Origin: Halarchaeum rubridurum
GTDB taxonomy: Archaea > Halobacteriota > Halobacteria > Halobacteriales > Halobacteriaceae
Direction: 5' to 3'
Assembly (NCBI RefSeq): GCF_014647115.1
Contig: NZ_BMOO01000002.1
Coordinates: 62,001-126,000 of the forward strand
DNA: 64,000 bases
The notes beneath the pieces were generated by a model, which worked only from the letters and a program-made list of their open reading frames with translations, was not told where the DNA came from and ran no database searches. Positions 15,404-30,429 of this stretch are shown in pieces. Position numbers and translations under genes: made by a program. Every line of letters starts with the position of its first letter. Position 1 is the first letter of the stretch.

Positions 15404-15823
15404 ATGACCGTCGTTTCCATCTCGATGCCGGACGAACTCGCCGACCGCATCGACGAGTTCGCGGACGAACACGGCTACACGGGCCGCTCGGAGGTCGTCC
15501 GCGAGGCCGCGCGCAACCTCCTCGGCGAGTTCGAGGACAAACGCCTGGAGGACCGCGACCTGATGGCCGTCGTCACCGTCCTCTTCGACTACGAGACGAC
15601 GAACGTCGAGGAGAAGATGATGCACCTGCGCCACGAGAACGAGGACATCGTCGCCGCGAACTTCCACAGCCACGTCGGCGACCACCACTGCATGGAGCTG
15701 TTCATCCTCGAGGGCCGCCTCGACACCATCTCGACGTTCGTCGGGAAGATACGCGCGACGAAGGACACGCTCACCGTCGATTACTCCGTGACGCCCGTCG
15801 ACGACGTCGGCCCGCTCGCCTGA
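15404..15823 (+). CDS. nikR: Nickel-responsive regulator NikR
   Basis: A 139-residue repressor with an N-terminal ribbon-helix-helix DNA-binding domain ([17 protein letters not shown]) and a C-terminal ACT-like metal domain. The nickel site is fully conserved in spacing: His77, His88, His90 and Cys96, the same intervals as His76, His87, His89 and Cys95 of E. coli NikR. With nickel bound, such proteins tetramerise on a palindrome and repress nickel uptake genes. A CTTATTA box at 15372-15378 supports this ATG over one at 15383. A nickel/cobalt importer with a palindromic promoter lies at 46.2-48.8 kb and is its most plausible target here. Confidence 0.9.
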
Positions 15824-16976: not shown

Positions 16977-18092
16977 ATGAAGGTCGTGAGCATCGTCGGC
17001 GAGAGCGACGCGGGGAAGACCACGCTCGTCGAGCGCCTCGTCGCGGCGCTGGAGCGTGCGGGCGCGACCGTCGGCACGGTGAAGGGCATCCACCACGCGG
17101 TCGAACTCGACGACCCCGGGAAGGACACCCACCGCCACCGGAGCGCGGGCGCGGCGCGCGTCGTCGGCGTCACGCCGGACCTCACGGCGTCGTTCCGCCC
17201 CGTCGGGAAGGCCGACGGCGGGCCGGACGCGGCGCTCGACCGCGCGCTCGCCGAGTTCGGCGACGACGTCGACGTCGTGCTCGTCGAGGGGTTCTCCGGG
17301 TCGGCGCTCCCGAAGGTCGTCGTCGGCGACCCCGGCGCGAGCGACTACGCCGGCCCCGAGCTCGAACGCGTCCCGGCGCCCGACGACGCGGCCGTGGACG
17401 CGCTCGCCGCCCGCGTGCTCGCCGACGGCGCGGAGCGAGGAACCGACGCGACGACGCTCACCGACCTCACGCACGACCTCACGGCGGAGACGCCGGTCTA
17501 CCCGGGCGACCCCGCGGTATCGGTCACCCCCGCGGCGACGCACGACGACGACGGCTATCGGGTCTCGGCGCTCTCGCTCGGGACGCACGCGGGCACGCAC
17601 GTCGACGCGCCGCGCCACGTCGACCCCGAGGGCGCGACGCTCGGCGCGTACGACCTCGCGGACTTCCGCCTCGACGCGCGGCGCGTCTCGCTCGACGCCG
17701 ACGCCCGCGAACCCATCGGTCCCGAGCGCTTCCCCGACCCGGACGACGCCGACCTCCTCGTCGTCGACACGGGGTGGGCAAAGCGGTGGGGGACGCCCGC
17801 GTACGCCGACCACCCGTACCTCACGGCCGCCGCCGCGTCGTGGTGCGTCGAGCACGACTACCACCTCGCCCTCGACACCTTCGGTCCGGACCCGACGCCG
17901 ACGGCGAACGCCGACCCCGCGGAGCCGACCGGCGTCCCCGCCCACGAGCGCCTGCTCGGCGCGGGCCGCCTCGTCTTCGAGAACCTCACGAACCTCGGCG
18001 CCCTCGGCGAGCGCTTCGCGTTCCGGGCGTACCCCCTGAAGGTCGACGCGGACGGCGCGCCGGTCCGCGCCGTCGCCGAGACGACGGAGTGA
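16977..18092 (+). CDS. Fusion of MobB-like GTPase and kynurenine-formamidase-type cyclase
   Basis: A 371-residue protein with two unrelated domains in one uninterrupted frame. Residues 1 to about 155 match MobB, the P-loop adaptor of molybdenum cofactor guanylation: Walker A GESDAGKTT (8-16), then GTVKGIHHAVELDDPGKDTH and VDVVLVEGF. From about 160 onward it is a cyclase family (PF04199-type) metal-dependent hydrolase with the HxGTHxDxPxH-type motif (GTHAGTHVDAPRHV, about 202-215) and LVVDTGWAKRW. Known cyclase relatives hydrolyse N-formylkynurenine or similar amides. A GTG inside the linker could allow separate cyclase translation, but no stop separates the parts. A link to cofactor supply for the nitrate reductase is speculative. 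Confidence 0.8.
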   Translation: MKVVSIVGESDAGKTTLVERLVAALERAGATVGTVKGIHHAVELDDPGKDTHRHRSAGAARVVGVTPDLTASFRPVGKADGGPDAALDRALAEFGDDVDVVLVEGFSGSALPKVVVGDPGASDYAGPELERVPAPDDAAVDALAARVLADGAERGTDATTLTDLTHDLTAETPVYPGDPAVSVTPAATHDDDGYRVSALSLGTHAGTHVDAPRHVDPEGATLGAYDLADFRLDARRVSLDADAREPIGPERFPDPDDADLLVVDTGWAKRWGTPAYADHPYLTAAAASWCVEHDYHLALDTFGPDPTPTANADPAEPTGVPAHERLLGAGRLVFENLTNLGALGERFAFRAYPLKVDADGAPVRAVAETTE

Positions 18093-18191: not shown

Positions 18192-18857
18192 GTGCTGCCG
18201 GACGTCCTCGCCGCCCTGCCCGTCCGCCCCTTCGCCGTGATGAACGCCGTCGGCCTCGTCGCGTTCGCGCTCGTCGGCGCGACGAAGGCCATCCGCGAAC
18301 AGTTCGACCTCTTCGGCGTCACGGTCGTCGGCCTCGCCACGGCCTTCGCCGGCGGGGCGACCCGCGACGTCCTCGTCGGGCGCGTCCCGCTCGTCCTCCG
18401 GTCGTTCGGCGAGATATCGCTCGCGCTGGTCGGCGTCGCGCTCGCCGTCTGCGCGCACGTCGCGCTCGACGCCGCCGACGAACACCCCGCGACGCTCGCC
18501 GCGGACGGCGTCGGCCTCGCGGCGTTCGCCACCACGGGCGCAATCGTCGCCACGAACGCGGGCGTCTCGGGGTTCGGCGTCGTCGCCGTCGCCACGATCA
18601 ACGCCGTCGGCGGCGGCGCGCTCGCCGACATCCTCCTCGGCCGCCAGCCGTTCGTCCTCTTCGACGACTTCTACGCGAGCTGCGCGCTCCTCGGCGGCCT
18701 CGCGTACTGGCTGACCGCGGGCATCGGCGGCCACCCCGGCCCCGCGGCCGCGGTCTGCGCCGGCGTCACCGTCTGCACGCGGCTCCTCGCCGTCTCGCTC
18801 GACTGGCACCTCCCGACGGCCCAACGCCTCGGACGTCGCTGGCGGCGGCGGCGCTGA
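18192..18857 (+). CDS. TRIC-type/UPF0126 membrane channel protein
   Basis: A 221-residue membrane protein with seven predicted helices arranged as an inverted or tandem repeat. The first repeat has the UPF0126/TRIC signature GGATRDVLVGRVP, and the second has the related GGGALADILLGRQP in which the RD pair is replaced. Prokaryotic TRIC homologues form trimeric monovalent-cation channels. Translation begins at GTG. The C-terminus is strongly basic (RRWRRRR), fitting a cytoplasmic end. Confidence 0.82.
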   Translation: MLPDVLAALPVRPFAVMNAVGLVAFALVGATKAIREQFDLFGVTVVGLATAFAGGATRDVLVGRVPLVLRSFGEISLALVGVALAVCAHVALDAADEHPATLAADGVGLAAFATTGAIVATNAGVSGFGVVAVATINAVGGGALADILLGRQPFVLFDDFYASCALLGGLAYWLTAGIGGHPGPAAAVCAGVTVCTRLLAVSLDWHLPTAQRLGRRWRRRR

Positions 18858-26313: not shown

Positions 26314-28389
26314 ATGACCGGGTGGGTGCCGACGACGTGTATGCGGTGTGCGGTCGGGTGTGGACACCTCCAGCGCGGCGCGGACCTCGGCAACGGCGTC
26401 GACTCCGTGCGCGGCGACGCGTCGCATCCGACGAACCGGGGGCTCGCCTGCCAGCGCGGCGTGAGCGAGACGGCGGACCCGGCGGCGACGTTCCTCTCGC
26501 GGCCGCTCGTCCGGCGCGACGGCGAACTCGTCCCGACGACGTGGGACGTCGCGCTCGGGAAGGTGACGGAGGCGATGCGGGTGGCACACGAGCGCGACCC
26601 CGACGCCGTCGGGGTGCTCGGGAGCGGCCAGCAGACGAACGAGGCGGCGTACGCGCTCGGAAAGGCCGCGCGCGGCGCGCTCGGGACGCGACACTACGAC
26701 GCGAACACGACGCTCTGCATGGCCTCGGCCGTGAACGCCTACTACGACGCGTTCGGGAGCGACGCGCCGCCGTGTAGCTACGAGGACGTCCCCAAGGCGG
26801 AGAGCCACGTCGTCTGGGGGGCGAATCCGGCCGTCGCGCACCCCGTGCTCTTCCGGTGGGTGACGGACAGCGCGCGCGACGGCGAGCTCGTCGTGGTCGA
26901 CCCCGTCGAGACGGAGAGCGCCGAGGCCGCCGACGTCCACGTCCAACCGGAGCCGGGGGCGGACCTGACGCTCGCCCGCGCCGTGCTCGCGCACGTCGTC
27001 GAGACGGGTCGGGTGGACGAGGCGTTCGTCGAGGCCCACACCGAGGGGTTCGACGACGCGTGCGCCGACCTCCCGGACGCCGAGGCCGCCTGCGAGGCGG
27101 CGGGCGTCGAGCGCGCCGACGTCGAGGCGCTCGCGTCGGCCCTCGACGCGCGGACGCTCCTCTACTGGGGGATGGGCGTCAATCAGAGCACGCGCGGGAC
27201 GGCGACCGCGGGCGCGCTGATAGACCTCTGTCTCGCCACGGGGAACCTCGGGGAGGGGACCGGCCCCTTCTCGCTCACGGGGCAGGCGAACTCGATGGGG
27301 ACGCGGGTCTGCTCGTCGAAGGGCGGGTGGCCGGGGATGTGCGACTACGACGACCTGGACGCCCGCGCGCGCGTCGCCGAGGCGTGGGGGGTCGACGTCG
27401 CGCGCCTCCCGGACGACACCGGGCCGGGCCCCGTCGGGATGTTCGAGGCCGTCGGCGACGACATCGAGGTGCTGTGGACGGTGGCGACGAACCCCGCCGC
27501 GGGGATGCCGGACGCCGCGGACGCCGCCGAGCGACTCGACGACGTCTTCCTCGTCGCGCAGGACGCCTTCCACACGGAGACGGTCGAGCACGCGGACGTC
27601 GTCCTCCCCGCGGCGACGTGGGGCGAGAGCGAGGGGACGACGACGAACATGGAGCGGACGGTCTCGCGCGTGCGCGCCGTCACGGACCTCCCGGCGGGCG
27701 TGCGGACGGACCTCGACATCATCGCGGCGGTCGCCAACGGCGTCCGGCCGGGGACGTTCGAGCGTCACCCCGAGCCGGCGGCCGTCTTCGACGAGATGAC
27801 CGCGCTGACGGCCGGCACGCCCGCGGATTGCTCCGGGCTCTCCTACGACCGCCTCGACGACGCGGGCGCGGTGCGTTGGCCCGCCCCGGACGCGGAGACG
27901 TCGGTCGCCTACCGCTACCGCGACGGCGACGGCTGGGCGTTCGAGACGCAGAGCGGGGACGCGCGCTTCTCGACGGGCGCGCCCGACGACGACCTCCCGG
28001 AGCCGACGAGCGAGTCGTACCCCCTGACGCTCACGACCGGCCGGGAGAGCGACGGCTACAACACGGGCGTCCGCTCGCGCGGCGGCGAGACGGCGGTGCC
28101 GACGGTCCGGGCGAACCCCGCGGACGCCGCGGACGGCGACCGCGTGACCGTCGAGACCAGACGCGGGTCGGTGGCGGCGGTCGTCGCGGCCGACCCCGCG
28201 GTCCCGTCCGGCGTCCTCTGGCTCTCCATCCACCACCCCGCGACGAACCGCCTCACGCTCCCCGCGGTCGACCCGCGCTCCGCGGAGCCGAACTACAAGC
28301 AGTGCGCGGCCCGCCTCGTCCCGCGGACGGACGGCGCGGACGTCCCCGAGACGAGCGCGACGAGGTCGACGGGCGAGGCCTCCGACTGA
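26314..28389 (+). CDS. nasA: Assimilatory nitrate reductase (molybdopterin, ferredoxin-dependent type)
   Basis: A 691-residue cytoplasmic enzyme that reduces nitrate to nitrite for nitrogen assimilation. The N-terminal [4Fe-4S] site is Cys9, Cys12, Cys16 and Cys46. Cys135 in DANTTLCMASAV is at the position of the molybdenum ligand in this family. GNLGEGTGPFSLTGQANSMG and the C-terminal molybdopterin-binding TTGRESDGYNTGVRSR plus the last HHPATN region complete the pattern. No Tat signal is present, consistent with assimilatory rather than respiratory use. The nitrite reductase and NarK transporter follow. A GTTTC-N8-GAAAC inverted repeat at 26207-26224 could be a regulator site. Confidence 0.88.
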   Translation: MTGWVPTTCMRCAVGCGHLQRGADLGNGVDSVRGDASHPTNRGLACQRGVSETADPAATFLSRPLVRRDGELVPTTWDVALGKVTEAMRVAHERDPDAVGVLGSGQQTNEAAYALGKAARGALGTRHYDANTTLCMASAVNAYYDAFGSDAPPCSYEDVPKAESHVVWGANPAVAHPVLFRWVTDSARDGELVVVDPVETESAEAADVHVQPEPGADLTLARAVLAHVVETGRVDEAFVEAHTEGFDDACADLPDAEAACEAAGVERADVEALASALDARTLLYWGMGVNQSTRGTATAGALIDLCLATGNLGEGTGPFSLTGQANSMGTRVCSSKGGWPGMCDYDDLDARARVAEAWGVDVARLPDDTGPGPVGMFEAVGDDIEVLWTVATNPAAGMPDAADAAERLDDVFLVAQDAFHTETVEHADVVLPAATWGESEGTTTNMERTVSRVRAVTDLPAGVRTDLDIIAAVANGVRPGTFERHPEPAAVFDEMTALTAGTPADCSGLSYDRLDDAGAVRWPAPDAETSVAYRYRDGDGWAFETQSGDARFSTGAPDDDLPEPTSESYPLTLTTGRESDGYNTGVRSRGGETAVPTVRANPADAADGDRVTVETRRGSVAAVVAADPAVPSGVLWLSIHHPATNRLTLPAVDPRSAEPNYKQCAARLVPRTDGADVPETSATRSTGEASD

Positions 28390-28656
28390 CGCGACGCCCA
28401 AGCGACCGCCGGGGCTCGACGGCCCCACCCCGAGCCCTCTCGGCCACATCAAAACGTGACGAGTGACGAGCATCCGACGATTTTGCATTTTGGTTGGGCA
28501 TCGTAATGCGCGATACGGTTGACGTCCTTAGTCTCATTTAGGGTATTGATGTAATTCGCTCACAAGGCTTTTGGCTTCCGAGTCGTCACACGGTAATCGA
28601 ACGCAGTCCAAACACGTCCACTTCCACCGAGACGAAGTGGTCATATTCAGCAAACG
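28390..28656 (+). promoter_or_regulatory. Leader region of the nitrite reductase gene with a hairpin
   Basis: The 267-bp gap after the nitrate reductase gene becomes AT-rich from about 28450, with possible TATA elements (CATTTAG near 28534, GTATTGAT near 28543). This implies a separate promoter and a leader of roughly 80-100 nt. At 28618-28640 the sequence CCACTTC-N9-GAAGTGG forms a perfect 7-bp stem ending 16 nt before the ATG, close enough to affect translation. GCAT-N4-ATGC is at 28498-28509. Confidence 0.45.
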
Positions 28657-30429
28657 ATGGCAAACAAGAAGGAAGACGTCAAGGCGGAGATGTACGGTGA
28701 CGCGGTGCGGGAGAAGATAGAGGAGTTCGCCGAGTCGGGCTGGGAGTCGATTCCCGAGGACGAGCGCGAGGAGTGGTTCACGCGCTTCAAGTTCTGGGGG
28801 GTGTTCCACCAGCGCGACGGCCAGGAGAGCTACTTCATGATGCGGTTGAACAACTGCGGGGGCGTCCTCGAACCCGACCAGCTGCGCGCCATCGCGGAGG
28901 TCGCGGACGAGTACGCCCGGGGCCCCGCGGAGAACCCCCGGTGGGGGAACGGCTGGGTGGACTACACGACGCGTCAGTCGATCCAACTCCACTGGCTGAA
29001 ACTGGCGGACATCCCCGAAATCTGGGAGAAACTGGAGGCCGTCGGCGTCTCCAGTCGCTCCGCGGGCGGCGACACGATGCGGAACATCTCGGGGTGTCCC
29101 GTCGCCGGCAAGAGCGCCGCCGAGTACGTCCCGTCGCGCGAGCTCCTCGACGAGATCGAGGCGGGTATCCGGGGCGACGACGACCTCGCGAACCTCCCGC
29201 GGAAGTTCAACATCTCCGTGACGGGCTGCAAGCAGGGGTGCGCGCAGGACTCCATCAACGACGTCGCGCTCGAACCCGCCCACCGGCCGGTCGAGGCCGA
29301 GCAGGTGAGGGGCTTCAACGTCCGCGTCGGCGGCGGCCTCGGCGGGCGCGAACCCCGGAAGGCGCGCTCCCTCGACCTCTTCGTCACGCCCGAGCACGCC
29401 TACGAGACCGTCCGGGCGTTCGTCGAACTCTACTGCGAGGAGGGGAACAGACAGAACCGGAACAAGAACCGGGCGCGGTTCTTCGTCGACGAGTGGGGGA
29501 CCGAGGCGATTCGCGAGGAGCTCGACGAGCGCCTCGACTTCGAGTTGCTGCACGCCGGCACGGACTTCCGCGGCGAGTACACGTACAACGCCGGGCGGGA
29601 GGACGCCGACGGCGAGCACGACCACGTCGGCGTCCACGACCAGACCGAGGACCTGAGCTACGTCGGTCTGAGCGTGCCGGTCGGCCGGATGCCCGCCGAC
29701 GACGCGCTCGCGCTCGCGGACCTCGCCGACGAGTACGGGAGCGGCGAGATTCGGCTCTCGCGCCGGCAGAACCCCCTCGTGATGGACGTCCCGGACGAGC
29801 GCGTCGACGACCTGCTGGACGCCCCCCTCCTGGAGACCTACTCGCCGAACCCGAGCGTCTTCACGCGCGGCGGGATGGCCTGTACTGGCACGGAGTTCTG
29901 CTCCATCGCGCTCGCCGAGACGAAGACACGGATGGCGGAGACGCTCGGCTGGCTCCAGCGCAACGTCGAGGTGCCGGACGACGTCAGCCAGCTGAAGATT
30001 CACTGCTCGGGCTGTACGGCGGACTGCGGGCAGGCGATGAGCGCCGACATCGGCCTCCAGGGGATGCGCGCGCGCAAGGACGGCGAGATGGTGGAGGCGA
30101 TGGACGTCGGCGTCGGCGGCGGCATCGGCCAGGAGCCGACGTTCATCGACTGGGTTCACCAGCGCGTCCCCGCCGACGAGGTGCCCGGTCTCCTCAAGAA
30201 CATCGTGGAGACGTACGCCGAGATGCGCAACGACGGCCAGACGTTCCGCGAGTGGGTGGAGGCGACGGGTCACGAGACCATCGCGGAGCTCGCCGAGCCC
30301 GAGGAGACGGACTACGTCGACCCGTGTCTCACCGACGCCAAGCAGGCGTGGTACCCCTTCGCGGAGGGCGACGGGCCCGCGCCGACGGACGCCGACGGCA
30401 CCCCGCTGGGGGTGGAGAGCGATGACTGA
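28657..30429 (+). CDS. nirA: Assimilatory ferredoxin-nitrite reductase (siroheme)
   Basis: A 590-residue siroheme and [4Fe-4S] enzyme that reduces nitrite to ammonium with ferredoxin electrons. The duplicated ferredoxin-like and siroheme domains are visible: NNCGGVLEPDQLRAIAEVA and YTTRQSIQLHWL in the first half, and CTGTEFC followed by CSGCTADCGQ in the second, which supply the cluster and siroheme cysteines. In Haloferax the equivalent is called NasD. It overlaps the next small gene by 8 nt and is part of the nas/nir transcription unit. The sulfite reductase alternative is less likely given the nitrate reductase and NarK context. Confidence 0.87.
   Translation: MANKKEDVKAEMYGDAVREKIEEFAESGWESIPEDEREEWFTRFKFWGVFHQRDGQESYFMMRLNNCGGVLEPDQLRAIAEVADEYARGPAENPRWGNGWVDYTTRQSIQLHWLKLADIPEIWEKLEAVGVSSRSAGGDTMRNISGCPVAGKSAAEYVPSRELLDEIEAGIRGDDDLANLPRKFNISVTGCKQGCAQDSINDVALEPAHRPVEAEQVRGFNVRVGGGLGGREPRKARSLDLFVTPEHAYETVRAFVELYCEEGNRQNRNKNRARFFVDEWGTEAIREELDERLDFELLHAGTDFRGEYTYNAGREDADGEHDHVGVHDQTEDLSYVGLSVPVGRMPADDALALADLADEYGSGEIRLSRRQNPLVMDVPDERVDDLLDAPLLETYSPNPSVFTRGGMACTGTEFCSIALAETKTRMAETLGWLQRNVEVPDDVSQLKIHCSGCTADCGQAMSADIGLQGMRARKDGEMVEAMDVGVGGGIGQEPTFIDWVHQRVPADEVPGLLKNIVETYAEMRNDGQTFREWVEATGHETIAELAEPEETDYVDPCLTDAKQAWYPFAEGDGPAPTDADGTPLGVESDD

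Follow-up and report, generated by a model that had tools for sequence, protein, structure and literature searches.

A MobB-type GTPase fused in frame to a PF04199 cyclase-family hydrolase at one locus of two Halarchaeum species

Analysis of a 64,000-nucleotide stretch of the Halarchaeum rubridurum genome (hereafter the window) revealed a single gene in which a MobB GTPase is joined in frame to a PF04199 cyclase/amidohydrolase. This is a new domain combination assembled from known parts, and it is not among the NCBIfam MobB-fusion models that were matched. The explanation we favor, and regard as reasonably probable, is that the product is a bifunctional protein that arose by a chance join in an ancestor shared by the window species and Halarchaeum acidiphilum, with halves that function independently, and that the cyclase was later displaced in a third species of the genus (G002). 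Gene fusions are often taken as a sign that the two proteins work together. The present locus can be followed through one genus in which the cyclase is missing, is fused to MobB (in two species), or sits in a separate cluster while MobB bears a linker-like tail. It would caution that rearrangement can yield, as a by-product, a tidy two-domain fusion whose active sites are intact.

The fusion gene (positions 16977 to 18092 of the window, plus strand) comprises 371 codons and a stop, running from an ATG to a TGA with no internal stops. It was delineated by its open reading frame, by Pfam and NCBIfam scans and by its full-length homolog in H. acidiphilum. The uninterrupted passage from MobB into a PF04199 domain that had been proposed from the letters alone was borne out, as a single frame contains both domains with scores above the Pfam cut-offs. 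The MobB domain occupies residues 1-147 (16977 to 17417), of which residues 3-116 are matched by PF03205 at 103.7 bits against a cut-off of 26.6 (E=8.9e-30), and the NCBIfam mobB model TIGR00176 is likewise exceeded (105 bits against 76.2). A linker of residues 148-160 (17418 to 17456), which resembles an additional C-terminal tail of the G002 MobB, leads to the cyclase domain at residues 161-371 (17457 to 18089), where PF04199 matches residues 163-305 at 71.8 bits against 23.1 (E=9.1e-20). Both motifs quoted in the sequence-only reading were recovered, the Walker A motif GESDAGKTT at residues 8-16 (16998 to 17024) and the cyclase motif GTHAGTHVDAPRHV at residues 202-215. An AlphaFold2 model of the fusion computed from a two-row alignment reached a pLDDT of 39 and a pTM of 0.32 and was discarded for that reason. 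All genes of the immediate neighborhood lie on the plus strand, in the order NikR-type regulator (ending at 15823), nucleoside hydrolase (PF01156; 15902 to 16840), fusion gene and TRIC/PF03458 channel gene (18192 to 18857). The nucleoside hydrolase gene is syntenic in H. acidiphilum and G002 and was used as a dating control, and the channel gene adjoins mobB in relatives without the fusion.

The N-terminal half keeps the full domain, the Walker A motif and the conserved core of the MobB family (PF03205, TIGR00176; 2f1r from A. fulgidus and 1np6 from E. coli), and differs from it in bearing a C-terminal hydrolase of another family. Its relatives among known structures are 2f1r, 1np6 and 1p9n, and it aligns along its whole length with the free-standing MobB proteins of G002, G003 and Halarchaeum sp. 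CBA1220. The P-loop (GxxxxGKT) is present, 50 columns are held in common with six other haloarchaeal MobBs, and the P-loop residues G8, G13, K14, T15 and T16 are invariant across all seven. Several MobB fusions are already represented by models, namely MobB-MoaE (PRK14493), MobA-MobB (PRK14489), MobB-MoeA (PRK14491) and MobB-FeS (PRK14494). These resemble the present protein in being two-domain chains, with MobB being N-terminal in several of them, but their partners are mostly proteins of the cofactor pathway, whereas the present protein pairs MobB with a PF04199 hydrolase. The fusion protein falls under the cut-off of each of these models; against PRK14493, for example, it scores 73.4 bits against a cut-off of 215, with only the MobB part being aligned. 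Our literature search did not find a paper on MobB fusions of such a kind in archaea.

A protein of the MobB-MoaE type is known from Hfx. volcanii (PMC4443979). The MoaE proteins of Halarchaeum (L053, near position 401700 of G000:C1, and L051, L057 and L052) have an N-terminal MobB-like half that has lost its P-loop, reading MYVLDVATPPGDDPS where the P-loop version has MKVVSIVGESDAGKTT. Despite this loss, the MoaE protein of the window genome reaches a PRK14493 score of 306, far beyond the cut-off of 215. The window genome contains a single match to the fused MobB and, given that the MobB-like half of its MoaE protein lacks the P-loop, no intact MobB GTPase other than the fused one was found in that genome; its predicted role is in late molybdenum-cofactor assembly. 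The role of MobB is itself debated, having been described as a guanylylation accessory in E. coli and as a requirement of the tungsten branch in Methylorubrum (PMC13197769).

The C-terminal half belongs to the same family as the bacterial kynurenine formamidase KynB (4cz1, 4co9) and isatin hydrolase (5nnb, 4j0n), with 4cz1, 4co9 and 5nnb being its relatives among known structures, and shares their six metal/catalytic residues. Its motif HAGTHVDAPRH (17586 to 17618) fits the family metal motif HxG[T/A]HxDxPxH (PMC6117287) and supplies H204, H208, D210 and H214, while a second stretch (17943 to 17981) contributes H323 and E335, which a profile alignment to 4cz1 equates with His161 and Glu173 of BaKynB. 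Thus, the metal motif and the distal His and Glu are complete relative to the BaKynB set of His50, His54, Asp56, His60, His161 and Glu173 (PMC4243253). At the position of the KynB-type I(L/I)E the fused cyclase reads VFEN, with a glutamate of the KynB type, and the isatin hydrolase signature GLQC/GLAS is absent there; unlike in BaKynB, the pocket residue Trp20 is replaced by a tyrosine (Tyr175). These features point to a KynB-like metal-dependent hydrolase of amides or cyclic amides. The suggestion that N-formylkynurenine could be the substrate is unlikely to hold, because the KynB arylformamidase model TIGR03035 gives 51.7 bits against a cut-off of 223.05 and tryptophan 2,3-dioxygenase (PF03301) is missing from the Halarchaeum genomes G000-G003 and from G008, while two control genomes are matched by the same profile. 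We accordingly rejected a kynurenine pathway as the context of this cyclase. Single-domain versions of the fused cyclase occur as free-standing haloarchaeal proteins (65% identical in G008 and 71% in G002, each over 207 residues), which differ from it in being unfused and in having a lower dN/dS.

The search for the same two-domain chain elsewhere recovered it in H. acidiphilum (NZ_BATA01000032; L031:4001-5128) and in no other genome searched. The H. acidiphilum chain is 72% identical, in frame, and has four additional residues in its linker; the genome entry for this species (G001) and L031 are almost certainly one assembly, and hence constitute a single independent confirmation of the fusion. 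The fusion is therefore present in two of the four Halarchaeum species compared. The full-length fusion was absent from all others among 392 haloarchaeal genomes, no further case appeared in a draw of 393 genomes from the phylum that overlaps the haloarchaeal set, and no record in a plasmid scan covered 80% of the query, due to which we rejected a widespread fusion. These collections hold one genome per species for a subset of species, and bacteria were covered by plasmids and by a pattern-based contig scan that detects close relatives only. The sequence-only reading had also allowed for a sequencing error joining two genes and for confinement to this strain. The former is exceedingly unlikely: although the two genes lie apart in G002, in keeping with such an error, H. 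acidiphilum was assembled separately and carries the same fusion with a different, yet in-frame, linker length, and an artifact was rejected on this account. As for the latter, the fusion is not limited to one strain, although its range is very narrow.

Comparison with relatives that lack the fusion revealed how the locus might have been assembled. In G003 and Halarchaeum sp. CBA1220 the TRIC gene directly follows mobB, with no cyclase in between, and mobB has 151-152 codons and ends in RALEDA or RALDDV. Given that relatives have mobB and the TRIC gene adjacent without a cyclase, it appears that the cyclase arrived later and was then fused. This places the protein nearer to the frozen neighborhood that had been offered as one of its interpretations than to a functional pairing, but the neighborhood is not ancestral. 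In G002, a catabolic insert of 9.4 kb (L032:5305-14615) separates mobB from the TRIC gene; it encodes an aldehyde dehydrogenase, a frameshifted C-N hydrolase, an SSS symporter, a free-standing cyclase, an agmatinase-family protein, an NrpR-type regulator, an Lrp-type regulator and a class-III aminotransferase, after which the TRIC gene follows. The MobB of G002 bears a 12-residue tail, missing from the MobBs of G003 and CBA1220, that matches the fusion linker: 25 of 36 nucleotides are identical from position 17421 (codon-shuffle P=0.0005), and the tail aligns with the window linker up to the last residue before the cyclase. A search for insertion traces found no direct or inverted 10-mers in common between the borders of the cluster, and a 32-nucleotide match at its right border corresponds to retained sequence preceding the TRIC gene. 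The C-N hydrolase of the cluster (L032:6800-7960) matches its family as far as about residue 159, beyond which the coding sequence runs on in different frames; this reflects either a broken gene or sequencing errors. In G057 (L072), several genes of the cluster likewise occur near the cyclase, as does the agmatinase in G041 (L071). The cyclase of G003 and G008 is encoded at another site, in convergent orientation to a gene that we presume to be related to the archaeal FAD synthetase RibL (L078:5904-6979 and L077:6503-7561, respectively), and no cyclase adjoins the RibL-like loci in the window genome, H. acidiphilum or G002.

Synonymous divergence offers a means of dating these states. Between the window and H. 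acidiphilum, dS rises from 0.26-0.27 (NikR) through 0.35 (MobB) and 0.41-0.42 (nucleoside hydrolase) to 0.45-0.48 (cyclase), such that the cyclase stands at the top of the range of its neighbors but is of the same order. Since the cyclase thus resembles neighboring genes in its divergence, the fusion was probably inherited from the common ancestor of the two species. When the window is compared with G002, the flanking genes have low dS values (MobB, 0.24; nucleoside hydrolase, 0.29-0.30), but the cyclase reaches 0.80-0.85, about three times as much, which indicates that the G002 cyclase represents a separate lineage. At the MoaE, RibL-like and PF00384 loci the window is nearer to G002 than to H. 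acidiphilum, and RpoB gives a tie. The simplest history that we infer from this is one fusion before the split of the three species, followed by displacement of the fused cyclase by the cluster in G002. However, the amino-acid tree of the cyclases contradicts the synonymous signal, in that it groups H. acidiphilum with G002 and places the window cyclase outside (100/98). Faster amino-acid change along the window branch may explain this conflict.

The same tree would be in line with an alternative in which the G002 arrangement is the older one and the window lineage and H. acidiphilum acquired their fusions independently, either time through a deletion between mobB and the cyclase in a G002-like cluster. 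The gene order of G002 would indeed yield the fusion by deletion, and the two linkers are unlike in length and sequence, being too divergent to prove one junction. Nevertheless, we consider such a double origin rather unlikely, as both lineages would have had to join the genes in frame at almost the same point and to lose the genes that followed the cyclase. Moreover, a vertically inherited cluster would not produce a window-G002 cyclase dS about three times that of the flanks, and between the window and H. acidiphilum the cyclase and the flanks have similar dS. The G002-type tail on MobB could also predate any fusion.

Under the favored account of a single chance join, a cyclase gene would first have come to lie between mobB and the TRIC gene. 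Through loss of its start codon and a chance in-frame join it would then have become an extension of mobB, in an ancestor shared by the window species and H. acidiphilum. The two halves would act independently, with only transcription and translation in common, and the MobB half would serve the late cofactor assembly needed by, for example, the NasA nitrate reductase. In G002, a catabolic cluster with another cyclase would then have displaced the fused half, the linker staying behind as the tail of MobB. The order of these events, the independence of the halves and the activity of either half are what we infer from the comparisons.

An alignment of 28 free-standing haloarchaeal cyclases has 42 near-invariant columns, and both fused cyclases retain all of these, including the equivalents of the six BaKynB residues. 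At the same time, the fused cyclase is under weaker constraint than its free-standing counterparts, with a dN/dS of 0.47 (0.214/0.454, window against H. acidiphilum) compared to 0.11-0.31 in 13 free-standing pairs. By branch, the cyclase values are 0.49 in the window and 0.43 in H. acidiphilum against 0.14 in G002, and the bootstrap interval of the difference is 0.16-0.57, these being simple NG86 estimates from three sequences. For MobB, the H. acidiphilum branch is fast (0.47) and the window branch slow (0.07), suggesting that fusion had no uniform effect on this half.

These data also bear on a selected coupling of the halves, whereby the cyclase half would hydrolyze an amide made in, or regulating, cofactor synthesis, or would hold MobBs together through its dimerization. 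In its favor are the recurrent fusions of MobB to cofactor proteins (the MobA, MoeA and MoaE models and the Haloferax MobB-MoaE protein; PMC4443979) and the conservation of both sites in two species; maintenance of the fusion with intact active sites through the divergence of the two species could reflect a benefit from joining. On the other hand, the fusion is not in any other genome searched, the two functions are on separate genes in G002, and constraint on the fused cyclase is weaker rather than stronger. In 20 haloarchaeal loci the free-standing cyclase has no steady neighbors and no molybdenum-cofactor gene was recognized alongside it. We hence regard a coupling as improbable. We found no functional link between MobB and the cyclase, and the earlier proposal of a hydrolase acting on a cofactor-related amide drew no support from the variable cyclase neighborhoods (20 loci) or from the absence of the fusion elsewhere. 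Still less probable is the specific version in which the cyclase acts on an amide of a pterin or nucleotide cofactor, or its dimer scaffolds MobB, to provide hydrolase-assisted late cofactor maturation in Halarchaeum. If the halves were coupled, the hydrolase would be an unexpected partner for a cofactor-assembly GTPase of debated role. The neighbors of the free-standing cyclase were also considered as a lead to its substrate, but they vary too much to serve as one: the same sort of agmatinase, symporter or regulator gene recurs close by only in G057, G041 and G002.

A further possibility, raised as a check in the sequence-only reading, is that the cyclase is made separately from an internal GTG, in which case the one-chain product would be partial or nil. 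In-frame GTG codons are indeed present at codons 140 and 147, the latter also in H. acidiphilum, and another at codon 101, but none of the three is preceded by a Shine-Dalgarno-like sequence, which makes separate translation very unlikely. Furthermore, GTG147 codes for a residue of the C-terminus of MobB itself, and no AT-rich promoter-like stretch was seen by eye in the upstream coding sequence.

The window genome encodes three PF00384 molybdoenzymes, NasA included. The nasA gene lies about 8 kb downstream of the fusion (26314 to 28389; NCBIfam equivalog, 1137 bits) and is followed by a ferredoxin-nitrite-reductase-like gene (the pair spanning 26314 to 30429). In H. acidiphilum, a PF00384 match (G001:C156:29056-30296) is in two pieces in different frames, possibly due to a frameshift or an assembly error.
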